From: Christensenella timonensis
GTDB taxonomy: Bacteria; Bacillota; Clostridia; Christensenellales; Christensenellaceae
Assembly: GCF_900087015.1 (NCBI RefSeq)
Contig: NZ_FLKP01000002.1
Location: 1,550,001-1,614,000, forward strand
Length of the DNA: 64,000 nucleotides
Direction of reading: 5' to 3'
Under the pieces are notes generated by a model. The model made no database searches. It worked only from the letters and a program-made list of their open reading frames with translations, and was not told the origin of the DNA. Both the position numbers and the translations under genes were made by a program. Each line of letters opens with the position of its first letter. The first letter of the stretch is position 1. Below are positions 8,522 through 26,951 of this stretch, piece after piece.

Positions 8522-8548
8522 TTAGCACTCGAAATTGGTGAGTGCTAA
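8522..8548 (-). promoter_or_regulatory. CIRCE operator of groESL
   Basis: TTAGCACTC, nine bases, GAGTGCTAA: a perfect inverted repeat identical to the CIRCE consensus bound by the heat-shock repressor HrcA. It lies just downstream of the predicted groES promoter. The hrcA gene itself is not in the window. Confidence 0.97.
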
Positions 8549-9255: not shown

Positions 9256-9609
9256 ATGGTCGTAAAAGAAATTGCTGGCTTATTGGATGCTGAATTCCTT
9301 TGTGGGGAAGATAAAGCTGGAATGGAGATCATATGCGCGTGCGGGGCGGATATGATGAGCGATGTGCTTGCTTTTACAAAGCACGATGCTATTTTGCTGA
9401 CGGGCCTCGTCAACAACCATGTGATCAGGACAGCGGAAATGATGGATATCCAATGCGTCCTGTTTGTACGCGGAAAGCGACCGCCGGAGGAGATCATAGA
9501 TATGGCAAAGGATCGTGATATGGTTCTTCTGGCCACAGAGAAGCCGATGTTTTCGGCCTGCGGGGTACTTTATTCAAGCGGTATCAAGGGCGGGATGCGG
9601 GAGGTATAA
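9256..9609 (+). CDS. DRTGG-domain-like protein, hydrogenase-associated
   Basis: 117 residues, no membrane segment. The fold resembles the DRTGG domain found beside HPr kinase and in pyrophosphatase and CBS proteins; this is judged from overall pattern (VKEIAGLLDAE start, ADMMSDVLAF core, RGKRPPEEIIDMA end), so it is family-level only. A Cys-rich CACG lies near residue 30. No function is known to me for this family. It begins the gene run that contains a HydS-like hydrogenase, and a second DRTGG-like gene lies at 11381. GGGAGG stands six bases before the ATG. Confidence 0.65.
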   Translation: MVVKEIAGLLDAEFLCGEDKAGMEIICACGADMMSDVLAFTKHDAILLTGLVNNHVIRTAEMMDIQCVLFVRGKRPPEEIIDMAKDRDMVLLATEKPMFSACGVLYSSGIKGGMREV

Positions 9610-9611
9610 TT

Positions 9612-10025
9612 ATGATCTACTCCCAGGAATACGATGTGGCAAAAGATGATTTTGTCGCAGCGGGCGAGGTGTCCGCGGGGATCAAGAGCAAGCTGAAAAA
9701 AATGGGCATCGATCCCATGCTGATCCGCAAAATAGCGATCGCCTGTTATGAAGCGGAGATCAATATGATCATACACAGCTATGGCGGGCAGATGAAGTTG
9801 AACATCGACGACGATGGAATTGAGATCATATGCGAGGACACAGGCCCGGGCATCCCGGACATCGAGCTTGCGATGAAGGAAGGCTATTCCACGGCGTCGG
9901 ATACGGTGCGTGAGATGGGTTTTGGCGCAGGTATGGGGCTCTCGAACATCAACAAGAACAGCGACCATATGAACATCGAGTCGAGCCCGGCAGGGACAAA
10001 GCTGACGCTCAAGTTCCTGATGTAG
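9612..10025 (+). CDS. Small GHKL ATPase, anti-sigma-factor-kinase-like (RsbW/RsbT type)
   Basis: 137 residues consisting of only a HATPase_c domain. N box: YEAEINMIIHS. G1 box: DTGPGI. G2 box: GFGAGMGLSNI. A C-terminal GTK threonine follows. There is no histidine-containing dimerisation domain, so it resembles the RsbW/SpoIIAB/RsbT serine kinases rather than a sensor kinase. The start lies two bases after the preceding gene. Its likely role is signalling tied to the neighbouring HydS-like protein; no partner (STAS protein or sigma factor) is seen nearby. Confidence 0.82.
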   Translation: MIYSQEYDVAKDDFVAAGEVSAGIKSKLKKMGIDPMLIRKIAIACYEAEINMIIHSYGGQMKLNIDDDGIEIICEDTGPGIPDIELAMKEGYSTASDTVREMGFGAGMGLSNINKNSDHMNIESSPAGTKLTLKFLM

Positions 10026-10055
10026 CTTGCACATACTCTGAAGAAGAGGGTTGTT

Positions 10056-11384
10056 ATGGAAAAATATTTTCATTCGGTGCGTCTGGAAAAAGAAAAGTGC
10101 TCCGGATGTACCAATTGTATCAAAAGGTGCCCGACGGAAGCGATCAGGGTACAAAAAGGAAAGGCAAAGATATTGGCCGAGCGCTGCATCGACTGTGGCG
10201 AATGTATCCGCGTTTGTCCTTACCATGCTAAAAATGCGGTGACGGATCCGCTTTCCAGTATCAATAATTACAAATATAAAATTGCGCTGCCCGCTCCTGC
10301 TCTGTATGCGCAGTTCAAGCTGCTCGATAACAGAGACCGGGTCGAGCGCATCCTGACGGCCTTAAAATCAATGGGCTTTGACGATGTGTTTGAAGTGGCG
10401 CGCGGGGCGGAAATCTGCTCCAAGGCGATTGCGGAAGAATTGAGGACGCGGAACAAACGGCCGCTGATCTCGTCCGCCTGTCCCGCCGTGGTGCGCTTGA
10501 TACAAGTCAATTTTCCGGAGCTTCTTGACAATGTCGTCAACGTGGACGCGCCTGTGGAAGTAGCCGCTAAGGTCGCAAAACGTGAATTTGCCGAAAAGAA
10601 TAATGTGGATATTTCGGAGATCGGGGCTTATTTCATTACGCCGTGTCCGGCAAAGATGACAAGTATTAAATCACCCTTGGCAAAGGAAAAAAGCGACGTC
10701 GACGGCGCGATCTCCATCCTTGAAGTATATGGTTTGCTGGCGGGACAGCTCAAAACCGTTGAAACCAAACGCTTTGAGGGCGAAAAAGCCTCCGCCAAAG
10801 GTATCGGATGGGCAAATAGCGGCGGGGAGGCGTTCGCGATCGGCGAAAAGAACGCGCTTTCCGTGGACGGCATCGCAAATGTCGCGCGTGCCCTTGAGGA
10901 TATCGAGAACGACAAACTGAAAGACCTGGATTATTTTGAAGGGCTGGCGTGCATCGGCGGCTGCGTCGGCGGCCCGCTGGTATTTGAAAGTTCATTTGTC
11001 GCACAATCCCGCGTCAATACGATATGCGATATCGTAGGGCTTGACCAGGGGGTGGAAAACCATGCCGAAGAGTATGCAAAAGAAGGCGTTGCTTCAACGG
11101 TCAAGACGATCGAGCCGCTGGATGTTATGAAGCTGGACGACGACAGGATGGTCGCACTCAAAAAAATACAGCAGATCGACGAACTGCTGGAAAAGCTGCC
11201 GGGTATGGATTGCGGGAGCTGCGGCGCGCCGAGCTGCCGGGCGCTTGCGGAAGATATCGTAAGGGGACATGCAACGGAGATGGATTGCGTCTTCATGCTC
11301 AAAGAAAAGGTGCGTTACCTGGCGGAGGAAATGGTGGATCTCGCCAGTAAGGATAAAGTAAGAGGGGACGGAGAAGAGGAATGA
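10056..11384 (+). CDS. Putative sensory [FeFe]-hydrogenase (HydS-like, group C/D type)
   Basis: 442 residues. Order: two [4Fe-4S] ferredoxin motifs (C15, C18, C21, C25 and C44, C47, C50, C54), an H-cluster-like domain (about 75-310), and a C-terminal RnfB-like Fe-S motif (C386, C389, C394, C411). The three H-cluster loops are altered. L1 reads SSACPAV (C142 kept, alanine where catalytic enzymes have the proton-transfer Cys). L2 reads TPCPAK with no glutamate after it. L3 reads LACIGGCVGG. All four ligand cysteines are present. The L1 Cys-to-Ala change is known from sensory HydS proteins. There is no PAS domain, which fits group D better than group C. It overlaps the next gene by ATGA. Confidence 0.82.
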   Translation: MEKYFHSVRLEKEKCSGCTNCIKRCPTEAIRVQKGKAKILAERCIDCGECIRVCPYHAKNAVTDPLSSINNYKYKIALPAPALYAQFKLLDNRDRVERILTALKSMGFDDVFEVARGAEICSKAIAEELRTRNKRPLISSACPAVVRLIQVNFPELLDNVVNVDAPVEVAAKVAKREFAEKNNVDISEIGAYFITPCPAKMTSIKSPLAKEKSDVDGAISILEVYGLLAGQLKTVETKRFEGEKASAKGIGWANSGGEAFAIGEKNALSVDGIANVARALEDIENDKLKDLDYFEGLACIGGCVGGPLVFESSFVAQSRVNTICDIVGLDQGVENHAEEYAKEGVASTVKTIEPLDVMKLDDDRMVALKKIQQIDELLEKLPGMDCGSCGAPSCRALAEDIVRGHATEMDCVFMLKEKVRYLAEEMVDLASKDKVRGDGEEE

Positions 11385-11719
11385 CAAATGCGCAATTGGC
11401 ACAGGAATTGGGACTGAAACTGCTTACGGCAGGGGTGGACGAAAAGGCAGAAGTGACTGACGGTTGCGTGTGCGACCTGCTTAGCTGGGTGATGGCGCGC
11501 GGCGAAGCCGGTATGGCATGGATCACCGTGCAAACGCACCTGAATGTCGTCGCCGTCGCCTGCCTGCATGATTTTGCATGTGTGATCATCCCGGAAGGGA
11601 TCGAGGTGCCGCAAGCGACGGTCGATAAGGCGGCGGAGGAAGGGATCGCGATCTATTCTTCGGCGAAAACGGCGTATGACTTGTGCTGCGGGCTGTGTAA
11701 GCTTGGGATAGGACAATAG
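11381..11719 (+). CDS. Second DRTGG-domain-like protein, hydrogenase-associated
   Basis: 112 residues, soluble. It is related in layout to the protein at 9256 (N-terminal helix QLAQELGLKLL, then a Cys motif and a DLLSWVM core), but has more cysteines: CVC near residue 30 and DLCCGLCK near the C-terminus. Four clustered C-terminal cysteines could hold a metal or sense redox, which is inference. It starts inside the stop of the HydS-like gene, so coupled translation and partnership are likely. Function unknown. Confidence 0.65.
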   Translation: MTNAQLAQELGLKLLTAGVDEKAEVTDGCVCDLLSWVMARGEAGMAWITVQTHLNVVAVACLHDFACVIIPEGIEVPQATVDKAAEEGIAIYSSAKTAYDLCCGLCKLGIGQ

Positions 11720-11723
11720 CTTT

Positions 11724-12416
11724 ATGCGGCTTGCCTACGATTTCCATATCCATTCTGCGCTCTCGCCATGTGCGGAAAACGATATGACCCCCAACAACAT
11801 TGTCAACATGGCAAAGCTGAAGGGGCTTGATGCGATCGCGGTATGCGACCATAACAGCACGAAGAACCTGCCTGCGGTGGCCAAAGTCGCCGAGGCAGCC
11901 GGTATCACCCTTTTGCCGGCAATGGAAATGACGACGGCAGAGGAAGTACATGTGCTGGCTCTTTTTGAAGATGTTCCTGCGGCGCTCGCCTTTGGCGATA
12001 TGGTTTATGAAGCACTCCCTGACATCCCCAACAAACCGGATTTTTTCGGGGAACAGCTGCTGATGGATGAAAATGACGAGGTGACGGGACGCCTGGATAA
12101 GCTGCTCATTTCCGCGCTGCCGTTCGGTATGGACGAATGTTGCGCGTTGATTGCGCAATACGGCGGCTATTCTGTTCCGGCGCATATCAACAAAGGGGCA
12201 AATTCCATACTTGCAAACCTTGGCTTTTTTCCACCCCAACTGAGCTTTAAAACCATTGAAGTCACCAAAGGGCTTGCAATCATAAACGATATATCAGGAT
12301 TCCAGCAGATCCACTCATCAGACGCGCATAACCTGTGGCAAATATCAGAGGCGGAGAATACGATCGAGGCGGAAGGAAATTCCGTCCGGGCGATCCTGAA
12401 AAAATTATGTGTATAA
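11724..12416 (+). CDS. PHP-domain protein (predicted metal-dependent phosphoesterase)
   Basis: 230 residues. The PHP motifs are DFHIHSALSPC at the N-terminus, CDHNS near residue 46, a glutamate near residue 73 (AMEMTTAEEVH), HINKG near residue 154, and SSDAHN near residue 200. These are the metal ligands of the family. The substrate is unknown; relatives hydrolyse nucleoside 3'-phosphates or histidinol phosphate. PHP genes recur in hydrogenase neighbourhoods of Clostridia, as far as I recall. It starts four bases after the preceding stop. Confidence 0.85.
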   Translation: MRLAYDFHIHSALSPCAENDMTPNNIVNMAKLKGLDAIAVCDHNSTKNLPAVAKVAEAAGITLLPAMEMTTAEEVHVLALFEDVPAALAFGDMVYEALPDIPNKPDFFGEQLLMDENDEVTGRLDKLLISALPFGMDECCALIAQYGGYSVPAHINKGANSILANLGFFPPQLSFKTIEVTKGLAIINDISGFQQIHSSDAHNLWQISEAENTIEAEGNSVRAILKKLCV

Positions 12417-12439
12417 ATTCACAAAAGGCGTGCATTGCG

Positions 12440-12453
12440 ATTGATAATATGGT
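12440..12453 (+). repeat. 14-base repeat ATTGATAATATGGT, copy 1
   Basis: An exact copy lies at 13630-13643. Both precede hydrogenase-subunit genes. It contains TGATAATAT, which could act as an extended -10, or it could be a regulator site. Confidence 0.6.
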
Positions 12454-12518
12454 AAAATATTTTTTGTGTGAAGAACAACCAATAAATTAAGGGTATGGAT
12501 GAAGGAGGCACTTTTTTG

Positions 12519-13004
12519 ATGACCAACACAGCAGAGAACCAGGTAAAATATGACGAACTGAAGGTTTATATCAGTGAAATGATGGAAAAACCGGGCCCGC
12601 TGATGCCGATCATGCAGAAAGCACAGGATATTTTCGGCGCTTTGTCGTTCGATGTCCAGCGTTTTATCTCGGAAGAAATGGGCATCCCAATGACGGACGT
12701 ATACGGCGTGGCGACTTTTTACTCGCAGTTCGCACTTGAACCGAAAGGCAAGCATGTGATCGGCGTATGCATGGGTACGGCTTGCTATGTTAAGAAAGCG
12801 GAAGGCGTTCTCAATGCACTGGCAGACGATTTACAGACCGCGCCCGGCAATACGACGCCGGACGGACTGTTTACGCTGGAAGCTACACGCTGCCTGGGAT
12901 GCTGCGGGTTAGCGCCGGTCATCATGATCGACGACCAGGTGTATGGCAGGCTGAAACCGGAAGATATCCCGGGGATATTGGACATTTACAGAAAGAAGCA
13001 ATAA
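12519..13004 (+). CDS. hndA: NAD(P)-dependent hydrogenase subunit, NuoE-like [2Fe-2S] protein
   Basis: 161 residues with the thioredoxin-like [2Fe-2S] fold of NuoE/HndA/HydC. The cluster cysteines are in GVCMGTACYVK (Cx4C) and RCLGCCGLAPV (Cx3C, with one extra Cys). It passes electrons between the flavin subunit (hndC, 14280) and the rest of the enzyme. AGGAGG lies ten bases before ATG 12519; a TTG at 12516 and an ATG at 12495 are alternatives. It is separated from hndBCD by a GHKL ATPase gene, a terminator and a promoter, an unusual split for subunits of one complex. Confidence 0.9.
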   Translation: MTNTAENQVKYDELKVYISEMMEKPGPLMPIMQKAQDIFGALSFDVQRFISEEMGIPMTDVYGVATFYSQFALEPKGKHVIGVCMGTACYVKKAEGVLNALADDLQTAPGNTTPDGLFTLEATRCLGCCGLAPVIMIDDQVYGRLKPEDIPGILDIYRKKQ

Positions 13005-13025
13005 TACTTTTTTGCGGGCGCGGCA

Positions 13026-13577
13026 ATGAAAGAGATTTCACTGCATATCATGGATATCGTCCAGAATTCGATCACGGCCAATGCAACGCTAGTCGAAGTC
13101 CGTTTGGATATCCAATATGCAAAAAATACAGTTTCGGTGACGATCAGGGACAATGGACGCGGCATGAGCAAAGAAATGCTCGAGCATGTGACCAGCCCGT
13201 TTGTCACGACGCGCACCACCCGCAGGGTAGGCTTGGGGATATCCCTTTTCCAGGCGGGGGCACAGGCAACCGGCGGGGAGTTCAGTATCGATTCTACGGA
13301 AGGCGTGGGAACGGTTGTCCGCGCCGTGTATGCTCTTGACCATCTGGACAGGCCGCCGATCGGCGATTTTGCGGGCACGCTGCACACTTTGATCGTCAGC
13401 AACCCTGACATTGATTTTTTGGTGGCGGTCGTGGTGGATGAATCGGAGGATGTGCTCGATACGCGGGAAGTAAAGCAGGTGCTTGGCGCAGATGTCCCGC
13501 TGGACACGCCGGATATATCGATCTGGCTGAAGGAAAACCTGGATGAAATGTTCAAACCGGAATATATCGATTTTTGA
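13026..13577 (+). CDS. GHKL-type ATPase (HATPase_c) with C-terminal extension
   Basis: 183 residues. The N-terminal 100 residues form a HATPase_c domain: N box DIVQNSITANA, G1 DNGRGM, G2 GLGISL. The remaining 80 residues show no domain I recognise. No phospho-accepting histidine domain or membrane segment is present. It follows hndA by 21 bases with no clear ribosome binding site, and a terminator comes directly after it. The position inside a hydrogenase gene set suggests a signalling role with the HydS-like protein, but this is inference. Confidence 0.8.
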   Translation: MKEISLHIMDIVQNSITANATLVEVRLDIQYAKNTVSVTIRDNGRGMSKEMLEHVTSPFVTTRTTRRVGLGISLFQAGAQATGGEFSIDSTEGVGTVVRAVYALDHLDRPPIGDFAGTLHTLIVSNPDIDFLVAVVVDESEDVLDTREVKQVLGADVPLDTPDISIWLKENLDEMFKPEYIDF

Positions 13578-13580
13578 ATG

Positions 13581-13616
13581 GCAATAAAAACAGGCTCTTG
13601 GCCTGTTTTTTATTGC
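13581..13616 (+). terminator. Intrinsic terminator ending the hndA/ATPase transcript
   Basis: GCAATAAAAACAGGC, loop TCTTG, then the complement with one extra T and a T6 run inside the stem. It separates the regulatory half of the hydrogenase region from hndBCD. Confidence 0.85.
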
Positions 13617-13629
13617 TTGGTTTTTCGGA

Positions 13630-13643
13630 ATTGATAATATGGT
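13630..13643 (+). repeat. 14-base repeat ATTGATAATATGGT, copy 2
   Basis: Identical to 12440-12453. Here it lies 20 bases upstream of the -35 of the hndBCD promoter. Confidence 0.6.
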
Positions 13644-13662
13644 TAATTTTTCACAAAAGCAG

Positions 13663-13691
13663 TTGCGCTGGCCTTATTATGTTGATATAAT
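13663..13691 (+). promoter_or_regulatory. Promoter of hndBCD
   Basis: TTGCGC, 17-base spacer, TATAAT: a strong sigma-A match. Transcription would begin near 13698 and leave a leader of about 170 bases before hndB. Confidence 0.8.
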
Positions 13692-13870: not shown

Positions 13871-14248
13871 ATGAAATCACTTCAGGAATTGGAAGCAATC
13901 AGGAAGAAAATGCAGGACAAGGTCGACGTCCGTAAAAATGATGCGGATAAACGTATCGTCGTCGGTATGGCGACATGCGGGATCGCGGCGGGTGCGCGCC
14001 CGGTACTGCAGGCGTTTGTTGATGAAGTCGCGACGCGCGGCCTAAACGACGTATCCGTATCGCAGACAGGCTGTATCGGCGTATGCCGTTTGGAGCCGAT
14101 CGCGGAGGTTTTCCTGCCGGGACAGGAGAAAGTGACCTATGTAAAAATGACGCCGGAAAAAGCCAAGAAAGTCATTGCAGAGCATATCGTTAACGGCAGG
14201 ATCGTTACGGAATATACGATTGGGTATGCGGAACAGAACAACGCTTAA
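13871..14248 (+). CDS. hndB: HndB-like thioredoxin-fold [2Fe-2S] protein of the hydrogenase
   Basis: 125 residues. Ferredoxin-like [2Fe-2S] domain with cysteines in MATCGIAAGA and in TGCIGVCRLEP; one Cx4C partner is replaced, since the first motif has a single Cys followed by GIAAG. It corresponds to HndB of the tetrameric NADP-reducing hydrogenase described in Desulfovibrio. It is the first gene of hndBCD, behind its own promoter. With three rather than four cysteines in the usual places, cluster binding needs checking. Confidence 0.85.
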   Translation: MKSLQELEAIRKKMQDKVDVRKNDADKRIVVGMATCGIAAGARPVLQAFVDEVATRGLNDVSVSQTGCIGVCRLEPIAEVFLPGQEKVTYVKMTPEKAKKVIAEHIVNGRIVTEYTIGYAEQNNA

Positions 14249-14279
14249 GCGACAGAATTTTGGGGAGGTTAACAGGTAA

Positions 14280-16070
14280 ATGGATTTTTATCGCTCACAT
14301 GTACTCGTGTGCGGAGGTACCGGATGTACTTCTTCCGGATCGGGGGAGATCATTGACAGGTTTGAAAATGGTCTGAAAGCACACGGATTGGAAAAGGAAG
14401 TCAAAGTAGTCAGAACCGGTTGTTTTGGGCTGTGCGAGGCAGGCCCGATTGTGATCGTTTATCCGGAAGGCTCTTTTTACAGCAGGGTAAAGCCTGACGA
14501 CGTGGAAGAGATCGTTGAGGAGCACCTTTTAAAAGGGCGCATCGTAGAACGTCTTTTGCATAAAGAAGAAGATGAGAGCGGCGTGGCAACGACGCTTGAC
14601 GATATCGAGTTCTATAAAAAACAAAATCGTGTGGCCCTTAGGAATTGCGGTGTGATCGATCCGGAGGTGATCGACGAATACATCGCTTTTGACGGTTATA
14701 AGGCCTTAGGCATCTGCCTGACCGAAAAGAAACCGCAGGAAGTCATCGACATCATCAAACAGTCCGGGCTGCGCGGCCGTGGGGGCGGCGGGTTCCCGAC
14801 CGGCCTCAAATGGCAGTTTGGCGCCGATGCGAAGGGGGATAAGAAGTACGTTATCTGTAATGCGGACGAGGGCGACCCGGGCGCGTTTATGGATCGTTCC
14901 GTTTTGGAGGGCGACCCGCATGCCGTTATTGAAGCGATGGCGATCGCAGGATATGCCATCGGAGCGGATACCGGTTATGTGTATGTGCGTGCAGAATATC
15001 CGATCGCTGTAAAGCGTTTACAGATTGCGATCGACCAGGCGAAAGAATATGGCCTGCTCGGAGAAAAGATTTTTGATACGGATTTCAGTTTTGATATTGA
15101 GATTCGCTTGGGCGCAGGCGCGTTCGTATGCGGGGAAGAAACGGCGTTGATGGAATCCATCGAAGGCCGCCGCGGCGAACCGAGGCCCAAACCGCCGTTT
15201 CCGGCAAACAAGGGCTTGTTTGGCAAACCGACGATCATCAATAACGTGGAAACACTGGCAAATATCCCGCAGATCATCTTAAAGGGTGCGGAATGGTTTG
15301 CTTCGATGGGGACGGAAAAATCCAAAGGGACGAAAGTATTTGCGCTAGGAGGCAAGATCAACAATACAGGCCTTGTGGAGATCCCGATGGGGACGACGCT
15401 GCGCGAGGTCATCTACGAGATCGGCGGCGGTATTCCGGACGGCAAGAAGTTCAAGGCGGCGCAGACAGGCGGCCCTTCGGGCGGCTGTATCCCGGCGGAG
15501 CACCTCGACCTGAAAATCGATTATGATACGCTGATGTCCATCGGCTCTATGATGGGCTCGGGCGGGTTGATCGTCATGGACGAAGATAACTGTATGGTAG
15601 ACGTCGCGAAATTCTTCCTGGATTTCACTGTCGATGAATCGTGCGGGAAATGCCCGCCGTGCCGGATCGGTACGAAGCGCATGCTGGAGATCCTCGAGCG
15701 CATCACGGATGGCAAGGGGAAACCGGGCGACATCGAAAAGCTGATCGAGCTTGGCGAAAGTATCAAGGCAGGCGCATTGTGCGGCCTTGGCAAGACGGCG
15801 CCGAACCCGGTTCTTTCCACGATCAAATATTTCAGGGATGAATATGAAGCGCATATTTATGATAAGCGTTGTCCTGCGGGCCAGTGCCAGCAGTTGCTCG
15901 TATACGAGATCATTCCTGAAAAATGTATCGGCTGCGGAATGTGCGCGAGGGTATGCCCCGCAGACGCTATCACAGGAGAAAAGAAGCAGCCGTATCACAT
16001 CGATCCGGATAAGTGCATCAAATGCGGCGCGTGCGTGGAAAAATGTAAGTTTGCCGCGATCAAGAGATAA
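14280..16070 (+). CDS. hndC: NAD(P)-dependent hydrogenase flavin subunit (NuoF/HydB/HndC type)
   Basis: 596 residues. Order: N-terminal thioredoxin-like [2Fe-2S] domain (C11, C16, then CFGLC), the NuoF core with the glycine-rich NAD/FMN motifs GRGGGGFPTGLKW and NADEGDPGAFMDR, an SLBB region, the [4Fe-4S] motif SCGKCPPCRIGT plus a later Cys, and a C-terminal pair of ferredoxin motifs (CIGCGMCARVC, CIKCGACVEKC). This is the NAD(P)H-oxidising, FMN-containing subunit and the proposed seat of electron bifurcation in HydABC-type enzymes. GGGGAGG lies 11 bases before the ATG. hndD follows after 18 bases. Confidence 0.95.
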   Translation: MDFYRSHVLVCGGTGCTSSGSGEIIDRFENGLKAHGLEKEVKVVRTGCFGLCEAGPIVIVYPEGSFYSRVKPDDVEEIVEEHLLKGRIVERLLHKEEDESGVATTLDDIEFYKKQNRVALRNCGVIDPEVIDEYIAFDGYKALGICLTEKKPQEVIDIIKQSGLRGRGGGGFPTGLKWQFGADAKGDKKYVICNADEGDPGAFMDRSVLEGDPHAVIEAMAIAGYAIGADTGYVYVRAEYPIAVKRLQIAIDQAKEYGLLGEKIFDTDFSFDIEIRLGAGAFVCGEETALMESIEGRRGEPRPKPPFPANKGLFGKPTIINNVETLANIPQIILKGAEWFASMGTEKSKGTKVFALGGKINNTGLVEIPMGTTLREVIYEIGGGIPDGKKFKAAQTGGPSGGCIPAEHLDLKIDYDTLMSIGSMMGSGGLIVMDEDNCMVDVAKFFLDFTVDESCGKCPPCRIGTKRMLEILERITDGKGKPGDIEKLIELGESIKAGALCGLGKTAPNPVLSTIKYFRDEYEAHIYDKRCPAGQCQQLLVYEIIPEKCIGCGMCARVCPADAITGEKKQPYHIDPDKCIKCGACVEKCKFAAIKR

Positions 16071-16088
16071 GAAAGGGGATAATGTGAT

Positions 16089-17831
16089 ATGGTTTCATTG
16101 ACAATAGATGGCATTAAAGTGGAAGCGCCGGACAATACGTCCGTGCTTGACGCTGCCAGAAAAGCAAATATTGATATTCCGACGCTTTGTTATTTGAAAG
16201 GCGTAAATGCGATCGGCGCATGCCGTATCTGCCTTGTTGAGGTAGTAGGCAACCCGAACCTGCAGGCGGCTTGCGTGCTGCCCGTTTCGGAAGGCATGGA
16301 GGTGCTGACTTCGTCGGAAAAGGTATTGAAAGCAAGGAAGGTCAGCCTTGACCTGTTGCTTTCCAACCATGACCGCGAATGCCTGACCTGCGCGCGTAAC
16401 GGAAATTGTGAATTGCAGACGCTGGCGGAAGAATTCAACATGCGCACCATTCGCTATGAAGGCGAAAAGATCAAAAAAGACGTGGACGAGGAATCTGTGT
16501 CCGTCGTGCGCAATCCGAATAAATGCGTGATCTGTAAGCGCTGCGTCGCCGCTTGTGCAAAGCAGCAGGGCGTTGGCGTGATCAGCGCTACAAACCGTGG
16601 CTTTAAGACGATGATAGAGCCTGTATGGGGCAAATCCTTAGTGGACGTACCGTGTATCAATTGCGGACAATGCATCGTTTCATGCCCGGTGGGGGCGCTT
16701 ACGGAAAAAAGCGAGATCGACAATGTGTGGGCTGCGCTGCATAACCCCAATTTGCACGTTGTAGTACAGCCGGCTCCGGCGGTTCGCGTGGCGATCGGCG
16801 AGGAATTCGGTATGCCGATGGGCACGCGCGTAACGGGCAAGCTGGCCGCTGCGCTGCGTAAGATCGGTTTTGACAAAGTATTCGATACCGATTTCGGCGC
16901 AGACCTTACGATCATGGAAGAGGGGTACGAGTTTATCAACCGTGTGAAAAACGGCGGGACGCTGCCGATGATCACGTCCTGTTCGCCGGGATGGATCAAG
17001 TATGCGGAATATTTCTTCCCGGACATGCTGGATAACCTTTCCACATGTAAATCGCCCCACCAGATGCTGGGCGCGATCATCAAATCCTACTATGCGGAGC
17101 AGAACGGGATCGATCCGGCGAAGATCTTCACGGTTTCCGTCATGCCGTGTACGGCGAAAAAATATGAAAAAGACCGTGCGGGCGAGGCAGGCACAGGCTA
17201 CCAGGATGTCGACGCCGTGCTGACGACGCGTGAAATGGCGCAGATGATCAAGGAAGCGAATATCGATTTTGCCAACTTGCCGGACGAGGATTTTGACGAG
17301 GTGCTTGGGACTTCTACCGGCGCCGGCGTTATCTTCGGCGCAACGGGCGGCGTTATGGAAGCTGCGCTGCGTACCGTAGCGGAGGTACTGACGGGCGAAG
17401 AGCTCCAGAATGTTGATTTCTGTGATGTGCGCGGTATTTCCGGTATCAAGGAAGCGGAAGTAAAGATCGGCGACCTGGCGGTGAAAGTAGCGATCGCAAG
17501 CGGTACAGCCAATGCGAAGAAGCTTTTGGAAGCGGTTCGCCGCGGCGAAAAGGAATACCACTTCATCGAGATCATGGCTTGTCCGGGCGGCTGCGTGAAT
17601 GGCGGCGGACAGCCTATCGTATCGGCGCGTATCAAGAACGTGTTGGATCCGCGCGTAGTGCGGGCGCAGGGCCTGTACGACGAAGATTGCGATAAGCCAT
17701 TGCGGAAATCGCATGAAAACCCGGATATCCAGATGCTTTATAAGGATTTCTTAGGGGAGCCGAACAGCCATAAGGCGCATACGCTTTTGCACACGTTCTA
17801 TGAACAGAAGCCCAAATACAGGGAACAATAA
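16089..17831 (+). CDS. hndD: [FeFe]-hydrogenase catalytic subunit (HndD/HydA)
   Basis: 580 residues. Order: [2Fe-2S] domain (C34, C45, C48, C62), His-Cys3 [4Fe-4S] site (H94, C98, C101, C107), two [4Fe-4S] motifs (C146-C156, C189-C199), H-cluster domain, and a C-terminal small-subunit domain (about 515-575). H-cluster loops: L1 TSCSPGW (C298, S299), L2 MPCTAKKYE (C354), L3 IMACPGGCVNGGG (C498, C502). L1 has serine where the classical motif TSCCPxW has its second cysteine; see findings. With hndA-C it should form a soluble NAD(P)H- and ferredoxin-linked, probably electron-bifurcating hydrogenase that makes H2 during fermentation. Confidence 0.96.
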   Translation: MVSLTIDGIKVEAPDNTSVLDAARKANIDIPTLCYLKGVNAIGACRICLVEVVGNPNLQAACVLPVSEGMEVLTSSEKVLKARKVSLDLLLSNHDRECLTCARNGNCELQTLAEEFNMRTIRYEGEKIKKDVDEESVSVVRNPNKCVICKRCVAACAKQQGVGVISATNRGFKTMIEPVWGKSLVDVPCINCGQCIVSCPVGALTEKSEIDNVWAALHNPNLHVVVQPAPAVRVAIGEEFGMPMGTRVTGKLAAALRKIGFDKVFDTDFGADLTIMEEGYEFINRVKNGGTLPMITSCSPGWIKYAEYFFPDMLDNLSTCKSPHQMLGAIIKSYYAEQNGIDPAKIFTVSVMPCTAKKYEKDRAGEAGTGYQDVDAVLTTREMAQMIKEANIDFANLPDEDFDEVLGTSTGAGVIFGATGGVMEAALRTVAEVLTGEELQNVDFCDVRGISGIKEAEVKIGDLAVKVAIASGTANAKKLLEAVRRGEKEYHFIEIMACPGGCVNGGGQPIVSARIKNVLDPRVVRAQGLYDEDCDKPLRKSHENPDIQMLYKDFLGEPNSHKAHTLLHTFYEQKPKYREQ

Positions 17832-26603: not shown

Positions 26604-26609
26604 TTTTTT

Positions 26610-26939
26610 GAGCAGGCTGGATGGTTGCGCGCCTGAAAGGGCGTGAGGAAAGTCCGGGCTCCACAGGGCAGGGCGCCGGGTAACACCCGGTGGAGGCGAC
26701 TCCAAGGAAAGTGCAACAGAAATATACCGCGCCTTCTGGCGTAAGGGTGAAAAGGCGAGGCAAGAGCTCACCGGCGGTAGGGTAACTTACCGTGCAATGT
26801 AAACCCCGTCTGGTGCAAGATTGATATGGGGACATTTAATGGCGGCCCGTCAAGTCCTCTGTAATCGCATGAGCCATGCGGTAACGTATGGCCTAGATAG
26901 ATGACCATCAAGACAGAACCCGGCTTACAGGCCTGTCTC
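26610..26939 (+). ncRNA. rnpB: RNase P RNA, bacterial type A
   Basis: Catalytic RNA that matures tRNA 5' ends. The universally conserved core GAGGAAAGTCCGGGCTCC is at about 26644-26661, GGTAACACCCGG follows, and the 3' conserved ACAGAACCCGGCTTACAG is at about 26912-26929. P1 forms between GAG..AGGC at the start and GCCTGTCTC at the end. Boundaries are accurate to a few bases. The RNA follows the zinc-ribbon gene directly. Confidence 0.97.
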
Positions 26940-26951
26940 AAAAACGTTTCG

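Follow-up and report, generated by a model that had tools for sequence, protein, structure and literature searches.

The window analysed here, a stretch of 64,000 nucleotides from Christensenella timonensis (assembly GCF_900087015.1, contig NZ_FLKP01000002.1, positions 1,550,001 to 1,614,000), carries at positions 9256-13577 a cassette of genes grouped around HydS, a sensory-type [FeFe]-hydrogenase. Seven open reading frames, all on the + strand, were identified in this region in the order DR1, ATP1, HydS, DR2, PHP, HndA, and ATP2. The intergenic gaps are 2 bases (DR1/ATP1), 30 bases (ATP1/HydS), 4 bases (DR2/PHP), 78 or 102 bases (PHP/HndA), and 21 bases (HndA/ATP2), and the HydS and DR2 frames overlap by 4 bases (ATGA). 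An earlier, sequence-only reading of this stretch had described seven co-directional genes with short gaps or ATGA overlaps, and all of these frames were found in place. Pfam and NCBIfam searches support DRTGG for DR1, HATPase for ATP1 and ATP2, PHP for the protein of that name, 2Fe-2S_thioredx for HndA, and Fe_hyd_lg_C together with a C-terminal Fe-S motif for HydS. As that reading had also stated, the set lacks a conventional histidine kinase, response regulator, or sigma factor: Pfam gave no match to a histidine-kinase phospho-acceptor domain, a receiver, or a sigma factor among the seven genes, which sets them apart from a two-component system. A gene ending 19 bases 5' of DR1, which presumably encodes the deaminase-like protein ComEB, may be the first gene of the cassette transcript. 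In what follows, L-numbers denote the loci compared and G-numbers the genomes, G000 being the 2.65-Mb genome that holds the window; the closest HydS loci come from named Christensenella species and are 75-86% identical.

HydS (10056-11384, +) was characterized by Pfam, NCBIfam, alignments, and published group marks. The eight cysteines of two N-terminal [4Fe-4S] sites (C15, C18, C21, C25, C44, C47, C50, and C54) are present in all 131 distinct homologues, and of the H-cluster cysteines, located by alignment to solved enzymes, C142 and C197 occur in 131/131 and C299 and C303 in 130/131. The proton-transfer cysteine (C299 of CpI) is replaced, by alanine (A141) in 115/131 and by serine in 14/131 homologues, and the alignments place a leucine at the position of CpI M497 ('LACIGGC') and a threonine at that of CpI M353 ('TPCPAKM'), with CpI numbering as in PMC8163306. 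Altered active-site loops had been ascribed to the protein earlier. A C-terminal Cx2Cx4Cx16C motif (C386, C389, C394, and C411) is complete in 24/24 sequences of one set and in 130/131 of another. No PAS domain, by which group C is recognized, appears among the 14 Pfam matches, and 31 residues follow C411 in HydS. The same features have been published as marks of group D (M2e) (PMC8163306, PMC13104023). HydS is therefore best placed in group D (M2e) by these residue and domain marks, so that the earlier assignment to an H2 sensor of 'groups C and D' holds for the sensory type and is narrowed to group D, without PAS.

DR1 (9256-9609, +; 117 amino acids, aa) matched Pfam DRTGG with 29.2 bits (cut-off 25.2) and contains a conserved D-x-x-S motif, with S35 in 136/136 and D32 in 135/136 distinct homologues. 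DR2 (11381-11719, +; 112 aa), whose start overlaps the end of HydS, gave no Pfam DRTGG match in the window. It is regarded as a DRTGG protein because the hhalign profile comparison with DR1 gave a probability of 99.7% (E=1.9e-25), because its predicted model (pLDDT 97.4) has the DRTGG protein 2ioj as best PDB match (TM 0.81), and because the DR2 part of a fused protein in L102 scores 30.1 bits against Pfam DRTGG, over the 25.2 cut-off. The two DRTGG proteins proposed earlier were thus both recovered, by different routes. In DR2 the motif D32-x-x-S35 is invariant, both residues being found in 138/138 distinct sequences from the compared loci, and the protein stands after the C-terminal Fe-S domain of HydS, as the next gene or in the same chain. 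The motif is not kept in the DRTGG domain of a pyrophosphatase (L159; one comparison).

ATP1 (9612-10025, +; 137 aa; Pfam HATPase_c and HATPase_c_2) is a small GHKL ATPase similar to SpoIIAB and RsbW; a profile search matched SpoIIAB structures with E=1.6e-11 and RsbW weakly. Residues E47, N51, H55, D76, G78, and G80 are present in 137/137 distinct sequences from the compared loci, and we take E47 and N51 to be the catalytic Glu and Asn of Ser kinases. The likeness to SpoIIAB and the intact residues point to a putative Ser/Thr kinase. One could suppose that ATP1 is an ordinary anti-sigma kinase, tuned by HydS, whose STAS and sigma partners are encoded elsewhere; its SpoIIAB likeness fits this, as does the one STAS match of the genome (C2:1860227-1860487), 300 kb from the cassette. 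However, a cognate STAS antagonist or sigma factor in the operon, as expected of such a kinase, was not found among the seven genes, and ATP1 travels and fuses with DRTGG proteins and HydS (see below), which makes this explanation very improbable.

ATP2 (13026-13577, +; 183 aa; Pfam HATPase_c, 60 bits) is a GHKL ATPase of the histidine-kinase type without a phospho-acceptor domain and bears a conserved C-terminal extension. Its PDB profile matches are mostly histidine kinases, and a fold search with its predicted model (pLDDT 90) gave general GHKL matches only, including MutL, topoisomerase, gyrase, and GRP94. The description of both small ATPases as RsbW-like therefore holds for ATP1 but not for ATP2. 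The PHP-family phosphoesterase (11724-12416, +; 230 aa; Pfam PHP 33.4 bits, cut-off 26.4) keeps H8, H10, D42, H43, E68, H76, H154, and D200 in 130/130 and H202 in 129/130 distinct sequences, nine positions that are presumably metal ligands. Its best solved relative is an exoribonuclease, and it shows weak family matches, far under their cut-offs, to 3',5'-nucleoside bisphosphate phosphatase and RNase RNM. A defence-system reading, checked for four of the proteins, produced weak matches only, for PHP and ATP2, and was discarded. HndA (12495-13004, +; 2Fe-2S_thioredx, 160 bits in Pfam), which had been counted as a cassette member, is instead a NuoE-like structural subunit of an NADH-dependent hydrogenase and stands outside the signalling unit; the in-frame ATG at 12519, behind a good ribosome site and common to relatives, is its likelier start.

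To describe the conservation of the unit, 80 of 215 loci from a scan for HydS relatives were kept. In 76 of these 80, all five genes of DR1-ATP1-HydS-DR2-PHP are present in this order, usually together with ATP2, showing that HydS, the two DRTGG proteins, the GHKL ATPase, and PHP, grouped in the earlier reading from one locus, form one conserved unit. Nine loci had apparently lacked a partner; a six-frame search restored L015, L031, L034, L054, and L075, and L073, L084, and L086 are incomplete at contig ends. L068, which starts at HydS and has neither DR2 nor PHP downstream, departs from full conservation. In L022 (10000-11280), counted among the 76, HydS is split over two frames (a pseudogene or an assembly error) in an otherwise complete cassette. 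Among 48 loci flanked by 7 kb or more on each side, HndC/HndD lie downstream on the same strand in 18, upstream and divergent in 21, and are absent in 9, which indicates that the five genes relocate together with respect to hnd.

A set of 319 genomes, sampled evenly across the phylum, was searched with profiles of HydS, DR1, PHP, ATP2, and ATP1 (DR2 being left out). The HydS search scored at most five candidates per genome and separated full-length matches (≥425 bits) from other hydrogenases (≤216 bits), with five partial matches (259-370 bits) included in the count. HydS was found in 125 genomes (132 copies), DR1 in 122, ATP1 in 132, PHP in 122, and ATP2 in 132; all five families occur in 103 genomes, any of them in 140, and none in 179. 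Fisher tests for the ten family pairs gave p values from 1e-52 to 1e-77, with relatedness of the genomes ignored. When the count was repeated over 128 families defined by tool labels, 53 had any cassette gene and 42 had all five in at least one genome, and ATP1 was present in 48/48 families with HydS (p=6e-31). Within 8 kb of the 132 HydS copies, ATP1 was found 123 times, PHP 110, ATP2 108, and DR1 107 times. Co-occurrence at chance level, which the sequence-only reading had named as one outcome that would speak against it, is excluded by these numbers, and the arrangement of the cassette genes is far beyond chance. Christensenella and Lachnospiraceae are among the gut lineages that have the cassette.

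Fusions were recognized from domain maps of open frames, Pfam confirming one example per kind, and connect neighbouring members of the unit. DR1 is fused to ATP1 in L103, L108, L111, and L145, and in G079, G115, G149, G226, and G250 the DR1 and ATP1 matches have equal open-frame lengths of 270-280 aa. The same fusion, suspected from open-frame length in L075 and L084, was rejected there: the N-terminal part is out of frame and DR1 has its own frame. ATP1 is fused to HydS in L136 (G233), where its kinase residues are intact, and HydS to DR2 in L102 (G111) and L115 (G033), from two genera of one family. PHP is fused to ATP2 in L144 (G211), and a single open frame without an inner stop covers both in G186 and G284; in G011, G097, and G131 the ATP2 match contains a stop. 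The fusions therefore name ATP1 and DR2 as candidate partners of HydS.

HydS is not obligatory for the cassette. Cassette genes occur without HydS in 15 genomes; In G090, G117, and G150, which carry cassette genes, nothing matched group D HydS, and the second cassette of G304 lacks it too. The order in these HydS-free cassettes is DR1, CBS pair fused to ATP1, DR2, PHP, ATP2 (L121, L123, L124, and L129; L121 confirmed by Pfam), and ATP2 directly follows PHP in L121 and L123-L129. In L125-L128, a DR1-DR2-PHP-ATP2 locus is accompanied by ATP1 and HydS together on another contig. The CBS pair is not a strict substitute for HydS, because L100 and L143 have both and L117-L120 neither. L117-L120 hold shortened sets of DR1 and ATP1, with DR2 and ATP2 added in L118-L120, that lack PHP, HydS, and CBS and have Rex nearby; HndA lies within about 4-7 kb in L118-L120, and HndD likewise in L118-L119.

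The CBS pair and the PHP matches also suit a small-molecule relay, in which PHP would make or break down a nucleotide, to be bound by the DRTGG and CBS domains, with the GHKL proteins serving as switches instead of kinases. A CBS pair marks several HydS-free cassettes, CBS and DRTGG occur together in a regulated pyrophosphatase (3l2b), and both the exoribonuclease relative and the sub-threshold nucleotidase and RNase RNM matches of PHP would agree with nucleotide chemistry. On the other hand, no nucleotide synthase or effector was recognized in the cassette (the other loci were labelled for cassette and hnd families only), and the Ser-kinase Glu and Asn are present in all 137 ATP1 sequences; we regard such a relay as decidedly unlikely.

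The neighbours of the cassette share a common theme, namely NADH, ferredoxin, and H2. Beside the cassette of the window, all subunits (HndA, B, C, and D) of an Hnd-type NADH-dependent [FeFe]-hydrogenase were recognized, and most loci with hnd genes have ATP2 placed between HndA and HndB. RnfC follows the cassette in L122, L142, and L143, lies about 4 kb away in L123, and is also found within the compared stretch of L117-L119, L132, and L150; RnfC of L122 was identified by Pfam and the other rnf genes of L122 by eye. At least 20 of the 140 cassette genomes have a Rex gene no more than 5 kb away from the cassette, 16 of them directly upstream of DR1, compared with about one genome expected by chance from rough arithmetic; ten of the Rex genes were among the PF06971 matches listed and the rest came from our own Rex profile, with L117 and L128 confirmed by Pfam. 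In G211, whose full cassette lies elsewhere, a lone second DR1 (L130 8323-8727) stands directly behind a small c-type cytochrome-like gene (CxxCH, by eye).

This neighbourhood raises the possibility that DR1, ATP1, DR2, PHP, and ATP2 are assembly or activity factors, such as chaperone-like ATPases or nucleotide-handling proteins, for Hnd, Rnf, and HydS. The position of ATP2 between HndA and HndB, the fall of its model among GHKL proteins such as MutL, topoisomerase, gyrase, and GRP94, the occurrence of the cassette beside both Hnd and Rnf, and the lack of a visible output regulator among the seven genes of the window all agree with that role. It fits poorly with ATP1 being closest to SpoIIAB, with the absence of any hnd gene near the five genes in 8/48 loci, and with the nature of the part added to ATP1, a CBS pair, which we take to be a ligand sensor elsewhere; on this evidence we judge the role of assembly factors unlikely.

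On balance, we consider it somewhat probable that DR1-ATP1-HydS-DR2-PHP, usually with ATP2, acts as a cytoplasmic redox or H2 signalling module for enzymes of NADH, ferredoxin, and H2. From the anatomy, the co-inheritance, the fusions, and the intact catalytic residues, we infer kinase and phosphatase activities, a direction of signalling, and a target as follows. HydS would read H2 or the redox state and, as fusions and adjacency suggest, hand the signal to its fusion partners, ATP1 upstream and DR2 downstream. ATP1 may then phosphorylate or bind DR1 and DR2, which could carry the phosphate on the D-x-x-S serine S35, the candidate acceptor and the weakest step of the scheme. PHP, fused to ATP2 in one family, may reset the state as a phosphoesterase, and in several HydS-free cassettes the CBS pair fused to ATP1 may serve as the input. 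Judging from the neighbourhood, the module would control, alongside Rex, how much of the adjacent Hnd or Rnf complex is made or how active it is. In the window, hndBCD (13871-17831) is probably the enzyme regulated. As the sole output, however, hndBCD, proposed earlier, is too narrow, because 9/48 loci lack HndC/HndD, some cassettes stand beside Rnf or Rex, and some have no HydS.

Several observations weigh against such a module. Only one genome, G233, shows the ATP1-HydS fusion, and neither DR1 nor PHP was found in it. The evidence for the serine as phospho-acceptor consists of its conservation and its lack in a single pyrophosphatase DRTGG domain, and the nearest solved relatives of PHP are nucleases and unassigned phosphoesterases, not protein phosphatases. 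Pfam recognized no STAS partner, receiver, or transcription factor among the seven genes of the window. The CBS-ATP1 fusion occurs alongside HydS in L100 and L143, and the HydS-free sets of L117-L120 are without a CBS pair as well. At least one of the other four families is missing in 22 of the 125 HydS genomes, contig breaks not being separated in this number, and 11 HydS genomes lack only DR1, seven of them in family f27. In 8 of the 48 well-flanked loci no hnd gene accompanies the five genes, and the ninth without HndC/HndD (L010) has only HndA and ATP2. Finally, the core of a cis-element shared by the two hnd transcripts of the window (described below) occurs before 7/113 hndA, 3/83 hndB, and 0/137 DR1 genes, nearly all of them in Christensenella; given this rarity, no general link to hnd transcription was found.

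A regulatory [NiFe]-hydrogenase that senses H2 and passes the signal to an ATP-dependent kinase is known from HoxBC-HoxJ. That system differs in its unrelated hydrogenase and in having the histidine kinase HoxJ and the regulator HoxA, neither of which the cassette has. ATP1 resembles SpoIIAB/RsbW in its small size, GHKL fold, and kinase Glu and Asn residues, and in having a small partner encoded next door, sometimes fused; in contrast to those systems, the window set has no STAS antagonist or sigma factor, and DRTGG proteins take that place. The CBS-DRTGG region of the clostridial pyrophosphatase (3l2b) likewise pairs the DRTGG fold with CBS, but in one enzyme chain, whereas the cassette proteins are separate, and D-x-x-S is not kept in L159. 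A 2010 review, cited in a paper of 2012, is said to describe a kinase between M2e and bifurcating hydrogenases. M2e hydrogenases were reported to be linked with kinases and with bifurcating hydrogenases in 2012 (PMC3561251), where this proximity is the ground for classing them as sensory, and in 2020 (PMC8163306); HoxJ/HoxA are mentioned in PMC5707799.

The closest described protein is TamHydS of group D (PMC8163306, PMC13104023), which shares with HydS the two N-terminal [4Fe-4S] sites, the lost proton-transfer cysteine, the Cx2Cx4Cx16C motif, and the lack of PAS, and its gene lies close to those for a group A bifurcating hydrogenase and a histidine-kinase-like ATPase. The 2020 paper (PMC8163306) gives its flanks as one ATPase and an 'AraC' regulator, whereas the 80 loci studied here have ATP1 and DR2 almost throughout; our guess is that the 'AraC' label was wrongly given to a DRTGG protein. 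T. mathranii, the organism from which TamHydS comes, has been transformed (PMC5707799). An H2-induced change in secondary structure has been reported for TamHydS (PMC13104023), and this 2026 article closes by asking for its interaction partners, a question that the fusions turn into direct tests of ATP1 and DR2. In group C, HydS/HfsB and HfsC (PMC5707799, PMC11837493) similarly combine a sensor-like and a working hydrogenase in one operon, and deletion of hfsB alters hydrogenase activity and the product spectrum (PMC5707799, PMC11837493), raising ethanol yield and hydrogenase activity in PMC5707799. Group C has a PAS domain, which follows the C-terminal Fe-S domain (PMC8163306), and a serine-phosphatase partner, whereas in the cassette DR2 occupies the place of PAS and the other members include a SpoIIAB-like ATPase and PHP. 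The hfsB effects fit the proposed mechanism, as does the observation, cited in PMC3492117 (see also PMC3561251), that 'Ta. tencongensis' has fourfold lower NAD(H)-dependent hydrogenase activity when H2 is high. No description of the cassette, its fusions, its HydS-free form, or a link of DRTGG, PHP, or CBS to hydrogenases was found in a library of open-access papers, a result that does not prove absence. PMC10102598, which contains both DRTGG and hydrogenase, proved unrelated to the cassette, and the words kinase, PHP, sensory, and gene cluster are all absent from PMC5626996.

The same genome encodes a possible second sensor. At C2 1991.6-1993.3 kb, a gene for a 572-aa group-C-like hydrogenase overlaps a SpoIIE-type phosphatase gene by 17 bases and adjoins a second, trimeric HydA/B/C-type hydrogenase (L175 3890-12827; G000:C2, 1988.9-1997.8 kb). 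No PAS domain was found in the 572-aa protein at E<1e-5, and its group is given by likeness only. Beside this set, L175 also encodes a protein with a Cas12f1-like TNB domain. In our boldest reading, a kinase with group D and a phosphatase with group C might be two halves of one switch. More broadly, we put forward, tentatively and as a doubtful possibility, that DR1-ATP1-DR2-PHP-ATP2 represents an undescribed signalling class in which a GHKL Ser/Thr kinase and PHP would act on DRTGG phospho-carriers that replace STAS proteins or receivers, with exchangeable HydS or CBS inputs and dedicated to the NADH, ferredoxin, and H2 economy of anaerobes; where a group C sensor and a SpoIIE-type phosphatase coexist, two hydrogenase sensors would feed a kinase arm and a phosphatase arm. 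The H2 level shifts how much ethanol, acetate, and lactate fermenters produce; in many anaerobic bacteria, the cassette has the appearance of an electron-flow switch.

Downstream of the cassette lie hndB (13871-14248, +), hndC (14280-16070, +), and hndD (16089-17831, +), the last encoding a group A6 [FeFe]-hydrogenase (NF040763 910 bits, cut-off 765). A strong intrinsic terminator between ATP2 and hndB (13586-13610, +; 13580-13620 folding with -19.6 kcal/mol, z -5.5) cuts hndBCD off from the cassette in the window. A likely hndBCD promoter, TTGCGC-17-TATAAT (13663-13691, +), was recognized by eye and is absent from the promoter scan output; its -35 element is TTGATT in L008/L009. Consistent with a separate promoter before hndB, L010 (9230-13444; Christensenella sp. 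UBA5399) keeps HndA and ATP2, and hndBCD was not found there within 7 kb. The cis-element stands before hndA as GATTGATAATATGGTAAAATATTT (12439-12462, +; found by the genome pattern search) and before hndB as AATTGATAATATGGTTAATTTTTC (13629-13652, +), the two sites sharing the 14-mer ATTGATAATATGGT (at 12440 and 13630). The longer pattern, built from these same two sites, matched only them in the 2.65-Mb genome with up to three mismatches, and a reversed control gave 0. A related form precedes hndA in L007-L009, and the hndB site is conserved in the Christensenella loci L008 and L009; the stretch upstream of hndB in L007 is too short to judge. Outside Christensenella, the core matched L019 and L021, while L088 is the genome of the window again. 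The element suggests one regulator for both hnd transcripts, with no tie to the cassette's own promoter. Rex operators before the hnd genes were sought by eye; the shared element does not fit the spacing of Rex sites.

Two further features of the window were noted. A perfect inverted element, TTAGCACTC-N9-GAGTGCTAA (8522-8548), precedes groES-groEL, with one match and none in shuffled sequences; we take it to be a CIRCE-type operator, the heat-shock site of HrcA. Rfam gave no RNA family over threshold within the cassette, and the sole family over threshold in the window is RNase P RNA class A (26609-26944, 285 bits).

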